NCBI RefSeq assembly: GCF_900141815.1
Contig: NZ_FQYR01000007.1
Coordinates: 62,001-126,000, forward strand
Reading direction: 5' to 3'
Length of the DNA stretch: 64,000 nt
Source of the DNA: Rubritalea squalenifaciens DSM 18772
GTDB taxonomy: Bacteria > Verrucomicrobiota > Verrucomicrobiia > Verrucomicrobiales > Akkermansiaceae
Each line of letters opens with the position of its first letter. Position 1 is the first letter of the stretch. Positions 11,877 to 17,646 of the stretch are shown here, in pieces. A program made the position numbers and the translations under genes. The notes under the pieces were generated by a model that had not been told where the DNA came from, searched no databases, and saw only the letters and a program-made list of their open reading frames with translations.

Positions 11877-11935
11877 AAATTCTAAACATAAAAAAGCACC
11901 AAGCTAAGCTTGGTGCTTTTTTATGTTTAGAATTT
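11877..11935. terminator. Perfect 59-bp palindrome acting as bidirectional terminator
   Basis: Two 29-base arms, perfectly complementary, flank one central A (11906). The core arm is AAAAAAGCACCAAGCT and the other arm gives TGGTGCTTTTTT, so both strands carry a GC-containing stem followed by a run of six T. It lies between the plus-strand TIM-barrel gene (stop 11848) and the minus-strand gene C2 (stop 11947). The same GCACCAAGC core appears in the terminator of paralogue C1 near 14789. Confidence 0.85.
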
Positions 11936-11946
11936 AGCAGCAAAGA

Positions 11947-13290
11947 CTACTTATTCTCTGAATCAGTAGCATTTCCGAAAAACTCTACGGTGCGCTTCAA
12001 AGTAAAAGTCGAGTAGACCAAGCGAAGCTTCTTAGTCGTAATTCCTACAGGATTACCAGACCCATCTAGCACCTCCTCTGTAAACGGAGTTTCAGTGATA
12101 ATTTCCACCGTGTAATCACCGTCGACAAGCTCACTATGATCCCAGCTTTCAGCGGCAATAATCTGAGTTTCACGCTGCGGCGTTACCGTATTGAAGTTTG
12201 TCGGGTCATAGTCATTTGCTACCACCTCCTGAAGAATGATTTGTTCTCCAGTGTAGTTCTCTACAGCTTGACCCTGATAGATTCTCACATAGGTCTTACT
12301 TGTCGGATATAAATCCACCAGATCGACAATGAGAGTTGGGAATTTGTTTAGCGTACGTCCACTCAGTGTGAATGGTTCATCCGCCAGTTTGGCAAGAAGC
12401 GAAGCATCAGCAATCGGCCATACCTGGACTTTTTCTTCATCGATAATCTGCCAATCCGCCTGTTTTAGGTTACCGTGCTCATCCACCACAAATTCGAATT
12501 CGTTAGGAAGCCCCAGCACCCGGATATACTCTTCCCCCTTCTGCTTGAACTCTAAATCACTGTAAAGCGATGTCAGAGTACTACACTGCAGGGTATAATA
12601 TTGGATTCCATCTTTAATCTCAGACTTAGGCGAGAATGATACGCGCTCTTCAGTATCCACATCTTCGAAATACCAAGTGTCCCCCTCTCTCACTATGTAT
12701 ATCTGCTCTACCACTCTCTTGAGATCTCCATACTCAGAGATTCGATCACGCCCTTCCTCGTACTCTGAGGTTAGAACCTCCAAGAGCACCTTACGACTGG
12801 ACTCTGGCGCTGTGGTGTCACCGATCAAGTTCGTGATATAGATCTTTCCCTGATATTTCTCATCGGCTCGGGTACGAGTAACTCCCTCGTACTGGTCCTC
12901 GGAACTTGTTACGATCTCCACCTGCGGTCGGTAGGGGTGTACCAGTTTTTCCTTCAGGTTGTACAAGTTGGTATCCGGTGTCATCCCGGAGCCAAAGAGG
13001 ATAAAGCGTGATCCGTATTTATCGATTGGCATAGAAGAAATGACATCTCCTGATTCGACACCCACTCCGTCTGGACCAGCCACATCGATCTGAACCACGG
13101 TAGCCTGCTCATACAAGTTAGTCTCCGGATTGGTCCACATCCATGCGCCTAGGTCTGAGTCATAAGTGGCCTGTGCTGGCGTGATTTGCAGAATAAAGTC
13201 TGTAGCGGCACTCACCGTACTGACTTGAGAAAATAGCGAGATAACCGCTAGCTGGCATGCTGCCAGTAATTTGATCCCTTTTTTATACAT
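11947..13290 (-). CDS. Secreted protein C2 of the duplicated A-B-C operon, unknown function
   Basis: I do not recognise this family. The 447-residue protein has a signal peptide (MYKKGIKLLAACQLAVISLFSQVSTVSA before ATDFILQIT). The mature part has few cysteines, is rich in Asp, Glu, Tyr and Val, and reads like a beta-rich surface or periplasmic protein. It is roughly 90% identical by eye to C1 (14845-16188), with the same length. Divergence concentrates around residues 205-240, where C2 reads SEIKDGIQYYTLQCSTL and C1 TEYKDGVSYYTLTCNTL. A TAGGAATCAATACT ribosome-site region precedes the ATG and is conserved in C1. In this copy the gene upstream is a broken B, with the same 15-base spacing as B-C1. 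Confidence 0.8.
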   Translation of the reverse strand: MYKKGIKLLAACQLAVISLFSQVSTVSAATDFILQITPAQATYDSDLGAWMWTNPETNLYEQATVVQIDVAGPDGVGVESGDVISSMPIDKYGSRFILFGSGMTPDTNLYNLKEKLVHPYRPQVEIVTSSEDQYEGVTRTRADEKYQGKIYITNLIGDTTAPESSRKVLLEVLTSEYEEGRDRISEYGDLKRVVEQIYIVREGDTWYFEDVDTEERVSFSPKSEIKDGIQYYTLQCSTLTSLYSDLEFKQKGEEYIRVLGLPNEFEFVVDEHGNLKQADWQIIDEEKVQVWPIADASLLAKLADEPFTLSGRTLNKFPTLIVDLVDLYPTSKTYVRIYQGQAVENYTGEQIILQEVVANDYDPTNFNTVTPQRETQIIAAESWDHSELVDGDYTVEIITETPFTEEVLDGSGNPVGITTKKLRLVYSTFTLKRTVEFFGNATDSENK

Positions 13291-13305
13291 AGTATTGATT
13301 CCTAT

Positions 13306-13574
13306 CTATTGCTTAGCTCTTTCGTCACCCAAAGCTTCATGGATACTATAGTCTTGAGCGTATCTGTCTTGAGAATGGGTTTCTCAGCCACGTATGTGCG
13401 CCTGGAGCTACCGACCAAGACTGCCTATATCTAGTCTCTGCCTACTGCCAAACCATCTCTGGATTTCACCTCTCAAATGACAGGAGTAGTTCGTTATGCC
13501 GTAAAGACTGGCTCCCGAAGTAACACCAGAGATGCCCTTCATAAGCGTCAGAGCAAGAAATTCATAGAGGACAT
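13306..13574 (-). pseudogene. Decayed copy of gene B in the second A-B-C operon
   Basis: The stretch between A2 and C2 aligns with the intact B gene and its flanks (16204-16680). The 3' end is kept (CTATTG.TTAGCT.TTTCGTC around the stop codon, one base deleted). A middle block around 13375-13430 matches (GAGAATGG.TTTCTC, then C.TGGAGCT), and so does the 5' end (CAGAG.AA..., ATG at 13574). About 200 of 477 bases are missing, and the frame from the old ATG reads MSSMNFLL then stops (TGA). The A2-side hairpin and the spacing to C2 match the intact operon. A functional short peptide is unlikely. Confidence 0.8.
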
Positions 13575-13598
13575 AAAGTTTAGATTAAGCCTGTAGAA

Positions 13599-13625
13599 TC
13601 AGACCCAGATCATTACTGGGCCTGA
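13599..13625 (-). promoter_or_regulatory. Conserved A-B intergenic hairpin (second copy)
   Basis: A 10-bp stem (TCAGACCCAG / CTGGGCCTGA, plus-strand sense) with a 7-base loop lies between A2 and the broken B gene. The single difference from the first-copy hairpin at 16708 is an A-C mismatch if the plus strand is read as RNA, but a G-U wobble on the transcribed minus strand. That is consistent with selection for an RNA structure in the A-B-C transcript. No T-run follows, so it is more likely an mRNA processing or stability element than a full terminator. Confidence 0.55.
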
Positions 13626-13646
13626 ATTCCAACAATGACGATTAGA

Positions 13647-14498
13647 CTACTTTTTCTCATCATCAACATTAGGATCAGAATCATCCCACTTGTTCTTACT
13701 CTGCTGGGCAGGGTTAGAGGAATCTACACCATCAATATTGTTACCGTGACCGTTGTTGTTCTTGGTCGAATCTTCACCAGTATTGGAAGAATCAGTTGAG
13801 GTGGGGTCCGTTTCTTTTTTCTCCTGTCCAGGAGGCTTGGCGGAAGTCTCGCCAGGGGTGGAATCATCCGTCCAGACACCTGTATTTACGGAAGGCTCTG
13901 TTCCTTCTATGCCTTCGCGCTTGAGAATCCAGTTAATGCTAGTGTGATAGCCTTCACGAACCAAACCATTGACTTGAAGGTCACCTGTAGGCACAGGTGG
14001 CTCCTTCATGGAAACTCCGTGTACGATGATGTAGCTCTCGACATCACTTTCCATGTTTGTCGTCTCGCTACAGCTCACAGATACATCCTCGTTTTTGAAG
14101 ATAATTGGAGAATCAAAAAGTACACTCTCAGAAGCATCGTCTTCGATATTGTAAGCAGTCAGACTGGCACTCGAAACAACCCACTTGCTGCCACTCTTCG
14201 TTCCTAAGATAGAAGCCTGGGCTGTGGACTGGCCTGTATACTGATCGTTACCAGTAGAGGTTACCAGCTGTCCAGAGGACGGGTGAATTTTACCATCGTA
14301 CGGCTTACCTGCGACTAGAAGCCAAGAATAGCCTGTTACCTTATATTCATAAAAGTTGCCAAGAGCTATACTCTCTTGGATGCTGGCTCCTTGATAACTT
14401 TCTGCGGTCTCCATGCCTGGAGCGGCCAGCGTTAGATCAGCATGTGAAGCTGCTGTCAGCAAACCTGCAGCTCCCAGGGTAGTAATCACTGTTTTCAT
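13647..14498 (-). CDS. Secreted protein A2 of the duplicated A-B-C operon, unknown function
   Basis: I do not recognise this 283-residue family. A signal peptide is visible (MKTVITTLGAAGLLTAASHA before DLTLAAPGMETAESYQG). The body (to about residue 210) is beta-like, with a conserved SYIIVHGVSMKEPPVP and LVREGYHTSINWILKREGIEG block. The C-terminal 75 residues are a low-complexity, Asp/Asn/Ser/Gly-rich tail (NNNGHGNNIDGVDSSNPAQ, then DDSDPNVDDEKK) that could bind cations; this is inference. It is about three quarters identical by eye to A1 (16756-17646), which has a 13-residue longer tail. The pair and their operon arrangement mark a tandem duplication. No Shine-Dalgarno sequence precedes the ATG. 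Confidence 0.8.
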   Translation of the reverse strand: MKTVITTLGAAGLLTAASHADLTLAAPGMETAESYQGASIQESIALGNFYEYKVTGYSWLLVAGKPYDGKIHPSSGQLVTSTGNDQYTGQSTAQASILGTKSGSKWVVSSASLTAYNIEDDASESVLFDSPIIFKNEDVSVSCSETTNMESDVESYIIVHGVSMKEPPVPTGDLQVNGLVREGYHTSINWILKREGIEGTEPSVNTGVWTDDSTPGETSAKPPGQEKKETDPTSTDSSNTGEDSTKNNNGHGNNIDGVDSSNPAQQSKNKWDDSDPNVDDEKK

Positions 14499-14844
14499 TT
14501 TTTCGGGGGGATTTGGTTAAGACGCCCAAGCTGACTGATTGATAAAAAATCGACAAACACGAGCAATCAGTGACCTTCTTAAAGGATAACCCCCTAAATT
14601 TCAACCATTAAATACCAATCCCCCACAATCTCGATGATTGGCGTGAGCCCAGATCAGACATTACACATCAAATTATGTTAGAGCTCAGACATACCCATTG
14701 CTCATAATACTGCAGCCATCAGGCAACCAAATAGTATAGCAAAGAACCTCAAGGACATAACCCTCACGGCCTAAACTTAGAAATAAAAAAAGCACCAAGC
14801 AATCGCTTGGTGCTTTCATTAAATATGTCGGTACTAATAAGCGA
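14499..14844. other. Intergenic region between A2 and C1
   Basis: This 346-base stretch holds the C1 terminator (14789-14816 plus A/T flank) and the 5' region of the second operon copy. I see no gene. A short minus-strand open frame at 14685-14876 overlaps the end of C1 and has no protein-like features. The promoter of A2 should lie here, but no convincing -35/-10 pair was found. Confidence 0.5.
14784..14816 (-). terminator. Rho-independent terminator of C1
   Basis: A 12-bp stem (AAAGCACCAAGC / GCTTGGTGCTTT) with a 4-base loop is followed, on the minus strand, by a further T-rich stretch. It lies about 30 bases downstream of the C1 stop and shares its core with the terminator of C2, so it was copied with the operon. 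Confidence 0.85.
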
Positions 14845-16188
14845 CTACTTATTCTCTGAGTCTGTCGCGTTACCAAAGAACTGGACAGTACGCTTCAAGC
14901 TAAAGGTCGAATAAACCAGTCTAAGCTTCTTTGTATTAATCCCCACAGGATTACCGTCTGCGTCCACCACTTGCTCTGTGAATGGCGTTTCAGTGATGAT
15001 TTCGACTGTATACTCACCATCCTCAAGCTCGCTGTGGTTCCAGCTTTCAGAGGAAATGATCTGGGTTTCACGCTGAGGCGTTACCGTGTTGAAGTTGGTC
15101 GGGTCATAGTCATTGGCCACCACTTCCTGAAGAATGATTTGCTCTCCTGTGTAGTTCTCGACGGCAGGTCCCTTGTAGATACGAACATATGTCTTACTCG
15201 TTGGATAGAGATCTACTAGATCGACAATCAGTGATGGGAACTTATTCAGTGTACGTCCACTCAAGGTGAATGGCTCATCCGCCAATTTTGCGAGTAGTGA
15301 CGCATCAGCAATCGGCCATACCTGGATTTTCTCCTCATCGATAATCTGCCAGTCGGCTTGCTCTACGTTGCCGTGTTCATCTACCACATACTCGAATTCG
15401 TTAGGAAGCCCTAGAACACGGATGTATTCTTCCCCTTTCTGTTTGTACTCAAACTCGCTAAGAAGAGAAGACAATGTGTTACAGGTAAGTGTGTAGTAGC
15501 TTACTCCGTCCTTGTACTCAGTCTTAGGTGAGAAAGACACACGCTCTTCACTATCCACATCTTCAAAGTACCAAGTATCACCTTCGCGTACAATGTAGAT
15601 CTGCTCAACCACCCTCTTGAGGTCGCCATACTCAGAAACTCGATCACGGCCAGCCTCATACTCTGAGGTTAGCACTTCCAAGAGCACCTTACGGCTTGAT
15701 TCCGGCGCTGTTGTGTCACCGATCAAGTTCGTGATATAGATCTTTCCCTGATATTTCTCATCGGCACGAGTACGGGTCACTCCCTCATACTGATCCTCGG
15801 AACTTGTTACGATCTCCACCTGTGGGCGGTAGGGGTGCACCAGCTTTTCCTTCAGATTGTACAAGTTGGTGTCCGGTGCAATGCCAGAACCAAAGAGGAT
15901 AAAGCGCGAGCCATATTTATCGATCGGCAGAGATGAAATAACATCACCAGTCTCAACACCAACACCCTCTGGTCCAGCCACATCAATCTGAACCACAGTA
16001 GCCTGCTCATACAAGTTGGTCTCCGGATTAGTCCACATCCATGCGCCCAGGTCTGAGTCATAGGTGGCCTGCGCCGGCGTGATCTGCAGAATAAAGTCTG
16101 TCGCGGCGTTCACCGTACTGACTTGAGAAAATAGTGAGATGGCGGCTAACTGACATGCAGCCAGAAATTTGATCCCTTTTTTGTACAT
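14845..16188 (-). CDS. Secreted protein C1 of the duplicated A-B-C operon, unknown function
   Basis: This is the paralogue of C2 (447 residues, about 90% identical by eye) with the same signal peptide design (MYKKGIKFLAACQLAAISLFSQVSTVNA). The mature protein starts ATDFILQITPAQATYDSDLGAWMWTNPETNLYEQATVVQ. It has no enzyme motif that I can identify and no membrane helix after the signal, so it is exported or periplasmic. GAGAGGAATCAATACC before the ATG is a plausible ribosome site. It starts 15 bases after the stop of B, so B and C1 are almost certainly co-translated from one mRNA with A1 upstream. A terminator follows the stop. Confidence 0.82.
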   Translation of the reverse strand: MYKKGIKFLAACQLAAISLFSQVSTVNAATDFILQITPAQATYDSDLGAWMWTNPETNLYEQATVVQIDVAGPEGVGVETGDVISSLPIDKYGSRFILFGSGIAPDTNLYNLKEKLVHPYRPQVEIVTSSEDQYEGVTRTRADEKYQGKIYITNLIGDTTAPESSRKVLLEVLTSEYEAGRDRVSEYGDLKRVVEQIYIVREGDTWYFEDVDSEERVSFSPKTEYKDGVSYYTLTCNTLSSLLSEFEYKQKGEEYIRVLGLPNEFEYVVDEHGNVEQADWQIIDEEKIQVWPIADASLLAKLADEPFTLSGRTLNKFPSLIVDLVDLYPTSKTYVRIYKGPAVENYTGEQIILQEVVANDYDPTNFNTVTPQRETQIISSESWNHSELEDGEYTVEIITETPFTEQVVDADGNPVGINTKKLRLVYSTFSLKRTVQFFGNATDSENK

Positions 16189-16203
16189 GGTATTGATTCC
16201 TCT

Positions 16204-16680
16204 CTATTGGTTAGCTTCTTTCGTCTCCTCGGATTCCTTCTCCTTGTAGGGGGTGACGGTGATCGGGTTCTTCTTGTATACCGCGATGATCATTTTGCCC
16301 TGACGCTGGAGATTTTCGATCTTGGTCTTATCTATTGGCTTCAGTCCTCGTGCCTGCTCAAGGCTCACCTCCATAAGGTGAAGCCAGCTGTAGTTACTCT
16401 TGTAAAAAGAAGACCATTTCACGAACTCACCTTCCGGCTTCTTCGCGACTTTGGATTTGAGTGCGTCAGGCGTATAGAGAATGGCTTTCTCTGGAACGAC
16501 CGTATGCTTGGAGCTGCTGACTAAAATGGCTGACACCTTGTAGATGTTAACTTTTTCAGCAATCTTAGGCTTTTTACGTTGAGTCGGCTGAGCCGGCTCG
16601 GCATTGGTTAAACTTGATACTCCAATGACTAGCAGAGATACAAGCTGAAGAGACAGAGTAAAACTTTTATGCAGAGACAT
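16204..16680 (-). CDS. Secreted protein B of the A-B-C operon, unknown function
   Basis: This 158-residue protein has a signal peptide (MSLHKSFTLSLQLVSLLVIGVSSLTNA before EPAQPTQRKKPK). The mature part is basic near the start (QRKKPKIAEKVNIYKVSAILVSSSKHTVVPEKAIL) and charged at the end (KEKESEETKEANQ). No family is recognised and no catalytic motif is visible. It lies 75 bases downstream of A1, separated by the conserved hairpin, and 15 bases upstream of C1. Its counterpart in the second operon copy is a pseudogene (13306-13574). That operon therefore runs without B, or the single B serves both copies. Confidence 0.75.
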   Translation of the reverse strand: MSLHKSFTLSLQLVSLLVIGVSSLTNAEPAQPTQRKKPKIAEKVNIYKVSAILVSSSKHTVVPEKAILYTPDALKSKVAKKPEGEFVKWSSFYKSNYSWLHLMEVSLEQARGLKPIDKTKIENLQRQGKMIIAVYKKNPITVTPYKEKESEETKEANQ

Positions 16681-16707
16681 AAAACTTAAATGAAACTAGT
16701 AGACGAA

Positions 16708-16734
16708 TCAGACCCAGCATATTACTGGGTCTGA
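16708..16734 (-). promoter_or_regulatory. Conserved A-B intergenic hairpin (first copy)
   Basis: A perfect 10-bp stem (TCAGACCCAG / CTGGGTCTGA) with a 7-base loop sits between the A1 stop (16756) and the B start (16680). No T-run follows on the minus strand. Its conservation in the second operon copy, where the neighbouring B gene has decayed, suggests a role for the A transcript itself, such as a 3' stabiliser or partial attenuator giving more A than B-C. Confidence 0.6.
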
Positions 16735-16755
16735 CTTGAAACTTAGGAAGTAACT

Positions 16756-17646
16756 CTAATTTTTCATTGAGCCAGGAGTATTTACACGATCTCCACCTGA
16801 TGCTTCATCATCAACGTCAGGATCTGTGTCATCCCACTTGTTCTTACTCTTCTGGGCAGGGTTAGAGGAATCTACACCATCAACATTGTTACCGTGACCA
16901 TTGTTGTTTTTGGTTTTATCTTTACCACTATTACATGCATCAGTAGCGGTAGGATCAGATTCCTCTTCTTTTTCACCCGGAGGCTTGGCCGAAGTCTCAC
17001 CTGGTGTGGATTCATCCGTCCACACACCAGTATTTACGGATGGCTCGGTTCCTTCGATGCCTTCACGCTTCAGAATCCAGTTTAGACTGGTGTGATAGCC
17101 CTCACGGACAAGACCATTCACCTGAAGATCGCCTGACGGTACTGGCGGCTCTTTCATGGAGACACCGTGGACAATGATGTAGCTTTCAACGTCATTTTCC
17201 ATGTTGGTCACCTCACGGCAACCAACGGTCACGTTTTCGTTCTTAAAGATGATTGGGGAGTCGAAGAGCACGCTGTCAGAAGCATCATCTTCGATGTTGT
17301 AGGCAGTGAGTCTCGCATTTTCAACTACCCACTTGGTGCCACTCTTGCTACCTGCGATGGAAGACTGAGCGATAGATTGTCCAACATACTGCTCGTTTCC
17401 AGTAGCTTTTACCAACTGGCCTGAGGAAGGGTGAATTTTACCATCGTATGGCTTGCCAGCGATAAGAAGCCAAGAATAGCCTGTTACTTTGTATTCGTAA
17501 AACTGACCAAGATCGATGGATTCCTGAATGTTAAGTCCCTGATAGCTTTCAGCGGTTTCCATACCTGGCGCAGCCAGGGTGAGGTCGGCATGGGCTGCTA
17601 CTGTAAGTAGACCTGCTGTTCCAAGGGTAGTAATGACGGTTTTCAT
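16756..17646 (-). CDS. Secreted protein A1 of the duplicated A-B-C operon, unknown function
   Basis: This 296-residue paralogue of A2 carries the signal peptide MKTVITTLGTAGLLTVAAHA before DLTLAAPGMETAESYQG. It has the same beta-like body, the VESYIIVHGVSMKEPPVPSGDLQVNGLVREGYHTS block and the Asp/Asn/Gly-rich tail (NNNGHGNNVDGVDSSNP, DDTDPDVDDEASGG). NNGHGNN..DGVD..NP tails recall, from memory only, the C-termini of some surface proteins of marine bacteria. It is the first gene of the A1-B-C1 operon. A possible sigma-70 promoter lies about 95-125 bases upstream, and no Shine-Dalgarno is seen before the ATG. Confidence 0.8.
   Translation of the reverse strand: MKTVITTLGTAGLLTVAAHADLTLAAPGMETAESYQGLNIQESIDLGQFYEYKVTGYSWLLIAGKPYDGKIHPSSGQLVKATGNEQYVGQSIAQSSIAGSKSGTKWVVENARLTAYNIEDDASDSVLFDSPIIFKNENVTVGCREVTNMENDVESYIIVHGVSMKEPPVPSGDLQVNGLVREGYHTSLNWILKREGIEGTEPSVNTGVWTDESTPGETSAKPPGEKEEESDPTATDACNSGKDKTKNNNGHGNNVDGVDSSNPAQKSKNKWDDTDPDVDDEASGGDRVNTPGSMKN

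Follow-up and report, generated by a model that had tools for sequence, protein, structure and literature searches.

Candidate exchangeable tip proteins of a divergent type IV filament machine in Verrucomicrobiales

A three-protein operon and its likely partners

We analysed a stretch of 64,000 nucleotides (hereafter the window) of contig NZ_FQYR01000007.1 from Rubritalea squalenifaciens DSM 18772, in which genes for three predicted secreted proteins, A, B and C, form two adjacent blocks on the minus strand. It is highly probable that A-B-C are the partners of a trio of minor-pilin-like proteins (f2, f4 and f3) and of a dedicated filament machine, and the balance of the evidence, by analogy with PilY1, favours the view that they are exchangeable tip or priming proteins of that machine, a divergent member of the type IV filament superfamily. 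This reading is based on a conserved operon with the minor pilins, on genome co-occurrence with the machine, and on the contrast in copy number between the two. The initial annotation had read the blocks as a structure, secreted or at the surface, that has variant subunits, which fits the evidence. A-B-C appear, however, to be only the outer part of a larger system, whose minor-pilin trio (L065) and filament machine (L164) lie elsewhere in the genome and were not visible to that first reading.

The operon with minor-pilin-like genes

Twenty regions with C were read first and gave f2, f4, f3 and a further gene, f5, as recurrent neighbours; in Verrucomicrobiales, A-B-C usually stands upstream of the prepilin-like genes f2, f4 and f3. 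A scan of the named genomes with f3 returned 121 relatives, the best 80 of which were kept and correspond to 77 loci, including records of Luteolibacter, Haloferula, Roseibacillus, Prosthecobacter and Verrucomicrobium and many Akkermansiaceae and Verrucomicrobiales assemblies; a scan of the same contig set with C1 as a single sequence found no relatives. Within the flanks of the 77 f3 loci, C was recognised in 63, B in 64, A in 55 and f5 in 43. Among the recognised genes, A-B-C-f2-f4-f3 follow one another on one strand in 41 of the 77 loci and B-C-f2-f4-f3 in 50, and the largest gap within the 50 shorter runs has a median of 112 bases and a maximum of 715. A conserved A-B-C order in other Verrucomicrobiota, which had been named in advance as a sign of one system, is thus borne out by these gene runs.

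In type II and type IV systems, the three-protein tip complex (GspI-J-K, PilV-W-X) consists of two pilins with Glu5 followed by a large one without it, as is the case for GspK. Here, Gly-1 is present in 73 of 80 f4, 72 of 76 f2 and 78 of 82 f3 sequences, and Glu5 in 79 of 80 f4 and 74 of 76 f2 but in none of the 80 f3 proteins with a residue at that position (two more are gapped), and the median f3 open reading frame (ORF) has 705 residues. This Gly-1/Glu5 pattern therefore gives f2, f4 and f3 a minor-pilin signature like that of GspI-J-K and PilV-W-X; the missing Glu5 is also touched on in PMC7541494. Two f4 proteins were tested for the prepilin motif, one of which exceeded the TIGR02532 and PF07963 cut-offs and the other fell below both, in the case of TIGR02532 narrowly. 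Against the PDB, the f4 profile gave weak pilin matches (E 0.09), and the f5 and f3 profiles gave no match. The models TIGR02596-2600, which we take to be the members of the Verru_Chthon cassette, had no match at E 1 to the A, B and C of the window or to a sample of f2, f3 and f4.

A dedicated and divergent filament machine

T2SSE-type ATPases were listed for 24 chosen genomes, 12 with C and f3 and 12 without. One class, at 420-464 bits, was found in all 24, and a second, at 261-274 bits, in each of the 12 positive genomes but in no negative one. The second class is surrounded by a conserved locus, which in the window's genome is L164 (G000:C8:14000-33500). In order, this locus holds a PilT-like ATPase, a small prepilin, proteins of 645, 178 (with a hydrophobic start) and 188 residues, a secretin, a 188-residue protein, a PilB-like ATPase, a PilC-like platform, a 139-residue protein, a second prepilin and further proteins. 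Its assembly ATPase matches PF00437 at 268 bits (E 1e-79), the inner-membrane platform PF00482 (E 3e-29) and the secretin PF00263 (E 8e-34) as well as PF03958, and both pilins exceed the PF07963 cut-off. These ATPase, platform, secretin and prepilin matches place the machine in the type IV filament superfamily; its prepilin peptidase could be one that also serves the usual pilus.

The PilB-like ATPase of the locus reaches 311 bits with the PilB model TIGR02538 (cut-off 675.65), compared to 599, 572 and 514 bits for three usual ATPases of the same genome (two score slightly higher with GspE), and it is this difference that marks the new machine as divergent. Equivalog cut-offs were dropped as proof of divergence, since the usual ATPases of that genome also miss them; its usual GspE- and GspF-like proteins fall below theirs too, by less (597/630 and 393/424), and its two other PilT proteins pass the TIGR01420 cut-off at 427. 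The usual type IV pilus or type II ATPases share the superfamily and the genomes with those of the machine, but they sit at separate loci, where in the window's genome they adjoin PilC/GspF-like genes, and they are present also in genomes without A-B-C. One pilin of L164 scores 13 bits with TIGR02596 (cut-off 70).

As far as model scores go, the machine could be of type IVa or of type II, since they do not separate the two. If it were a type II secretion-like machine, A, B and C could be its cargo, which the f2-f4-f3 pseudopilus (as GspI-J-K) would push through the secretin to be released or loosely held at the surface, with no part in a filament. We consider this chief rival explanation unlikely, although the secretin fits GspD best (136 bits, cut-off 351, compared to 68 bits and a cut-off of 750 for the Amuc_1098 family) and the platform fits GspF best (124 bits, cut-off 424). 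As in type II systems, moreover, three prepilin-like proteins stand in a row, the last and largest of which (f3) has no Glu5, and cargo genes can multiply and diverge like A-B-C, extra sets of which often come without extra minor pilins. However, the machine locus has, unlike type II systems, a PilT-like second ATPase, for which TIGR01420 is the best match (244.6 bits, cut-off 319.1), and a linked A-B-C; its main ATPase fits PilB slightly better than GspE (288 bits, cut-off 630); and among the ten machine proteins scanned, GspC and GspL had no match and the GspM-like matches were weak, coming from the 178-residue protein which, with the 645-residue one, stands where the alignment complex PilM-N-O would be expected. 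A place within the minor-pilin operon, as A-B-C mostly have, and several B-C-minor-pilin sets, as in genome G014, are also commoner among tips than among cargo.

An ABC-transporter-like trio of an ATPase, a permease and a conserved protein (L164:4329-6621) adjoins the PilT-like gene, with matching places in L166, L167 and L168.

Distribution across genomes

The family was surveyed by profile searches of 195 genomes, in which C was found in 84 and f3 in 84, with both in 80, and the two agree in presence or absence in 187. The profile for the PilB-like ATPase was made from a nine-row alignment, whose rows are 72-83% identical to the window's species, and was used at a threshold of E 1e-110. It recognised the ATPase in 75 genomes, all 75 of which have C and 73 of which have C and f3; none of the three markers was found in 107. 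Three orphan proteins thereby become parts of a defined machine, all three markers of which occur in more than a third of the family genomes sampled (73/195). The pairing holds within the window's own genus, where four of 12 genomes (G000, G022, G032 and G066) have all three markers and eight have none. A search within the phylum recovered C from 18 of 387 genomes, which all belong to the same order.

Copy number, divergence and history of the sets

The PilB-like gene gave a single match in 74 of 75 genomes, whereas 45 of the 84 genomes with C gave more than one C match, in most of them no more than six (some being split hits). In genome G014, where C has ten matches, split hits included, a single PilB-like match stands against six B-C sets. 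Four of these come with f2-f4-f3 and one with f3 only, and the sixth has no minor pilins; the A profile recognised a member in three of the sets. B is absent from some extra sets (copy 2 of the window, the third set of L025 and the first set of L101), and one B may thus serve several A/C pairs. Genomes with one machine and many putative tips offer a natural series.

Mean pairwise identity was compared for 17 components in 9 to 12 genomes, using the best copy of each, and was 75% for PilB, 56% for PilC, 51% for the secretin, 36% for f3, 30% for C, 25% for B and 24% for A. Similarities of PilB, PilC and the secretin follow genus, but the C of the window is 44% identical to that of G025, which belongs to another genus, and only 26% and 23% to those of G066 and G022, which belong to its own. 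In the C tree, G066 groups with the window pair and G025. Since the approximately unbiased test did not reject a single clade for the window's genus (p 0.066), horizontal exchange of A-B-C is at this point only a lead. G022 also carries two A-B-C sets in tandem (L069), and in the C tree the C1 and C2 of the window are a sister pair, as are the two C of G022 (100/100), which points to tandem duplication, or to a later levelling of copies, in the window's species and in G022.

Families and predicted folds of A, B and C

No Pfam or NCBIfam model passed for the A, B and C of the window. When their relatives were compared with Pfam at E 0.01, none of 69 C matched, and one of 30 A and one of 60 B gave a weak match to an unrelated domain of unknown function; with NCBIfam there was one weak match among the 69 C and none among the 60 B. 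Profile searches of the PDB found nothing for A and only E 0.55 or worse for C. For B, a relationship to uracil-DNA glycosylase inhibitor was considered, but the PDB profile match (E 0.023-0.035) was taken for chance. The predicted structure of B has a mean predicted local distance difference test score (pLDDT) of 86.5 and a confident core, at about 91-98 for residues 41-140. No structural match was found for it, with best Foldseek E values of 0.25 in the PDB and 1.6 among viral models and none of 477 aligned chains at a Z of at least 2, and these searches demonstrate neither a new fold nor its absence. The earlier statement that the three belong to no recognised family has held up in the Pfam, NCBIfam and PDB profile searches and, judged by sequence, A, B and C represent three protein families absent from the libraries searched.

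C1 is predicted (pLDDT 80) to form two immunoglobulin (Ig)-like beta-sandwich domains, at about residues 119-292 and 293-435, preceded by a poorly predicted N-terminus. It aligned at a Z of at least 5 with 741 of 995 chains, the best reaching 8.4, and its neighbours include the surface or biofilm proteins RbmA, GbpA, antigen I/II domains and PorU. At Z values of no more than 8.4 these neighbours may reflect merely a common arrangement, so that only "Ig-like" can be assigned.

The Asp/Asn-rich tail of A proved to be a recurrent module, GHGNN..DG.DSSNPG, seen in 16 of 61 A proteins from the named loci. In genome G014 the GHGNN motif is located inside C in four of the six B-C sets (L174, L175, L176 and L179), which suggests cooperation between A and C and a tail that can move between proteins as a module.

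Proposed role and comparison with known systems

In regards to function, the signal-like N-termini seen by eye would take A, B and C across the inner membrane, after which the three would bind to the f2-f4-f3 complex, prime filament assembly and be carried out of the cell as the filament tip, which is the task of PilY1 in type IVa pili. C could be a stalk or adhesin with two Ig domains, A the variable binding subunit, possibly binding calcium through its tail, and B a small assembly or linker subunit, and a single machine would serve several interchangeable A-B-C tips. Export, assembly, tip position and adhesion are all inferred here. More tentatively, and with somewhat less than even confidence, we propose that Verrucomicrobiales have an additional, undescribed type IV pilus-like machine with a three-protein A-B-C tip in place of PilY1, in which the fold of B is possibly new. 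Such a machine would have up to about six exchangeable modules, some of which arose by tandem duplication, and each module would address its own surface, polymer or partner cell.

The closest parallel is the tip complex of PilY1 and minor pilins in type IVa pili (PMC7541494 and PMC13190605), with which A-B-C share a secreted, here predicted, non-pilin protein encoded beside minor pilins and the presence of several sets for one machine. Three clusters of PilY1 and minor pilins serve a single machine in Myxococcus and are proposed to give tips of differing properties (PMC7541494). The systems differ, however, in that A, B and C replace one protein and have no matched PilY1 domain, and in that three minor pilins, not four, are recognised in the A-B-C operon. 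In addition, f3 is several times larger than PilX. Tad/Kil pili, for which interchangeable tips are reported (PMC12075869), resemble the proposed system in that a single filament machine can be fitted with any of several tip complexes, but the TadA model gives the two ATPases of L164 only 36 and 48 bits, far less than the PilB and PilT models.

Several observations weigh against the proposed tip role. No PilY1 domain was found in 30 A, 60 B and 69 C proteins (Pfam, E 0.01), and the Ig-like folds predicted for C are too common to indicate adhesion. The co-occurrence figures are raw genome counts without correction for kinship, and they include exceptions: C without f3 in four genomes and f3 without C in four, C without the PilB-like gene in nine and f3 without it in eleven, and the PilB-like gene without f3 in two. 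Incomplete assemblies may account for part of these, as in two of the nine genomes with C and no ATPase (G020 and G021) PilT-like or pilin genes of the machine type adjoin C (L180 and L181). C is also absent from the flank in 14 of the 77 f3 loci, some of which are short contigs and one of which belongs to a genome (G025, L092) with C elsewhere. Many genomes hold more C than f3, and extra A-B-C sets thus often lack extra minor pilins. Finally, in the window's genome the parts are unlinked, with A-B-C twice on contig C7 (that of the window), f2-f4-f3 on C4 at about 336.9-340.0 kb (L065) and the machine on C8.

This lack of linkage, as well as the surplus of C over f3, would also be expected if A-B-C formed a surface layer or secreted polymer of their own and had only their lineages in common with the pilus machine. 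We nevertheless regard such a layer as very improbable, given that B-C-f2-f4-f3 are contiguous in 50 of the 77 loci and that presence and absence are paired even within one genus.

A further difficulty is that rapid divergence is shared by parts of the machine, whose 178-residue protein has a mean identity of 27% and other proteins 31-35%; A-B-C are thus among the fastest parts of the system but are not alone. Divergence by itself is consequently no proof of surface exposure, and A, B and C could be periplasmic assembly or priming factors, or a scaffold around the secretin, that never reach the outside, and B, which is small and absent from some extra sets, behaves as a shared assembly factor could. 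This alternative seems to us improbable, however, since among the 17 components divergence is greatest in A and B, and since several variants of A and C are retained, as would be expected of parts exposed at the surface.

The machine is apparently undescribed. We found no description of the system in the open-access literature searched, including passages of PMC10540074, PMC13274419 and PMC12487129, although many pilins and pseudopilins are noted in Verrucomicrobiota (PMC12487129) and 67 pseudopilin homologues in one genome (PMC13274419). If the proposed tip role is true, PilY1-free pilus tips arose by recruitment of three new protein families, and the attachment of Verrucomicrobia to polysaccharides, algae or hosts would be open to gene-by-gene testing.

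The tandem A-B-C block in the window

All genes of the block lie on the minus strand. The first copy consists of A1 (16756-17646; 296 residues, with a signal-like N-terminus by eye and the GHGNN-type Asn/Asp-rich C-terminal tail), B (16204-16680; 158 residues) and C1 (14845-16188; 447 residues), with a hairpin between A1 and B (16705-16742, z -5.2) and a terminator-like hairpin 3′ of C1 (14771-14820, z -4.4). The second copy consists of A2 (13647-14498; 283 residues), followed 3′ by the equivalent of the A1 hairpin (13596-13633, z -4.3), a B2 remnant (about 13310-13600) and C2 (11947-13290; 447 residues). This tandem layout with a broken second B, proposed in the initial annotation, was confirmed by the ORFs and by full alignment of the two blocks, which shows that the duplication covers the A-B hairpin and the stretch of 15 bases between the B stop and the C start; the identical spacing and the matching hairpins of the two copies had likewise been noted correctly. 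The A-B hairpins fold better than 200 of 200 shuffles, as do the terminators after C1 and C2. B2 is a pseudogene, which differs from B1 by one gap of about 200 bases and many mismatches and has no ORF of at least 80 residues.

C1 and C2 are identical at 406 of 447 residues (91%), in agreement with the initial estimate of equal lengths and about 90%. A1 and A2, which had been put at about three quarters, are indeed similar, but the protein figure was too low: 237 of 283 aligned residues are identical (84%), and 79% of the DNA. A repeat search of the window also found 300-nt direct repeats of 80-83% identity between the blocks. With a DNA divergence of 17-21% and a synonymous divergence (dS) of about 0.8-1.5 between the copies of A and C, an assembly artefact, which had been named as a check, is ruled out as the source of the two copies. 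The ratio of nonsynonymous to synonymous divergence (dN/dS) is 0.045-0.078, so that selection has maintained A and C in both copies, whereas B2 has decayed; the duplication is old, and the A and C copies are under purifying selection. Genome searches found no further A or C copies beyond these two (the assembly is 96.7% complete). On the tip reading, the window would hold two tips in tandem with one common B.

The A-B hairpin, kept in both copies, perhaps adjusts the amount of A relative to B and C. At the other end of the block, a perfect 29-base inverted repeat (11877-11935, no strand, z -10), whose arms are separated by one base, is common to C2 and a convergent gene and resembles a very strong two-way terminator between convergent genes.

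Among the neighbours of A-B-C at other loci, f5 is a conserved protein (e.g. L028:2307-3149 and L025:4502-5308) with a D-GPF ... ID-SPA pattern, presumably reminiscent of RlpA-like double-psi barrels. It is mostly found before A-B-C or f2, and it has two matches elsewhere in the window's genome. The cassette was also seen in records titled Akkermansia muciniphila, Chthoniobacter flavus or Chthoniobacteraceae (L110, L152, L160; L148, L151, L156), and three f3 loci carry Chthoniobacter or Chthoniobacteraceae record titles.

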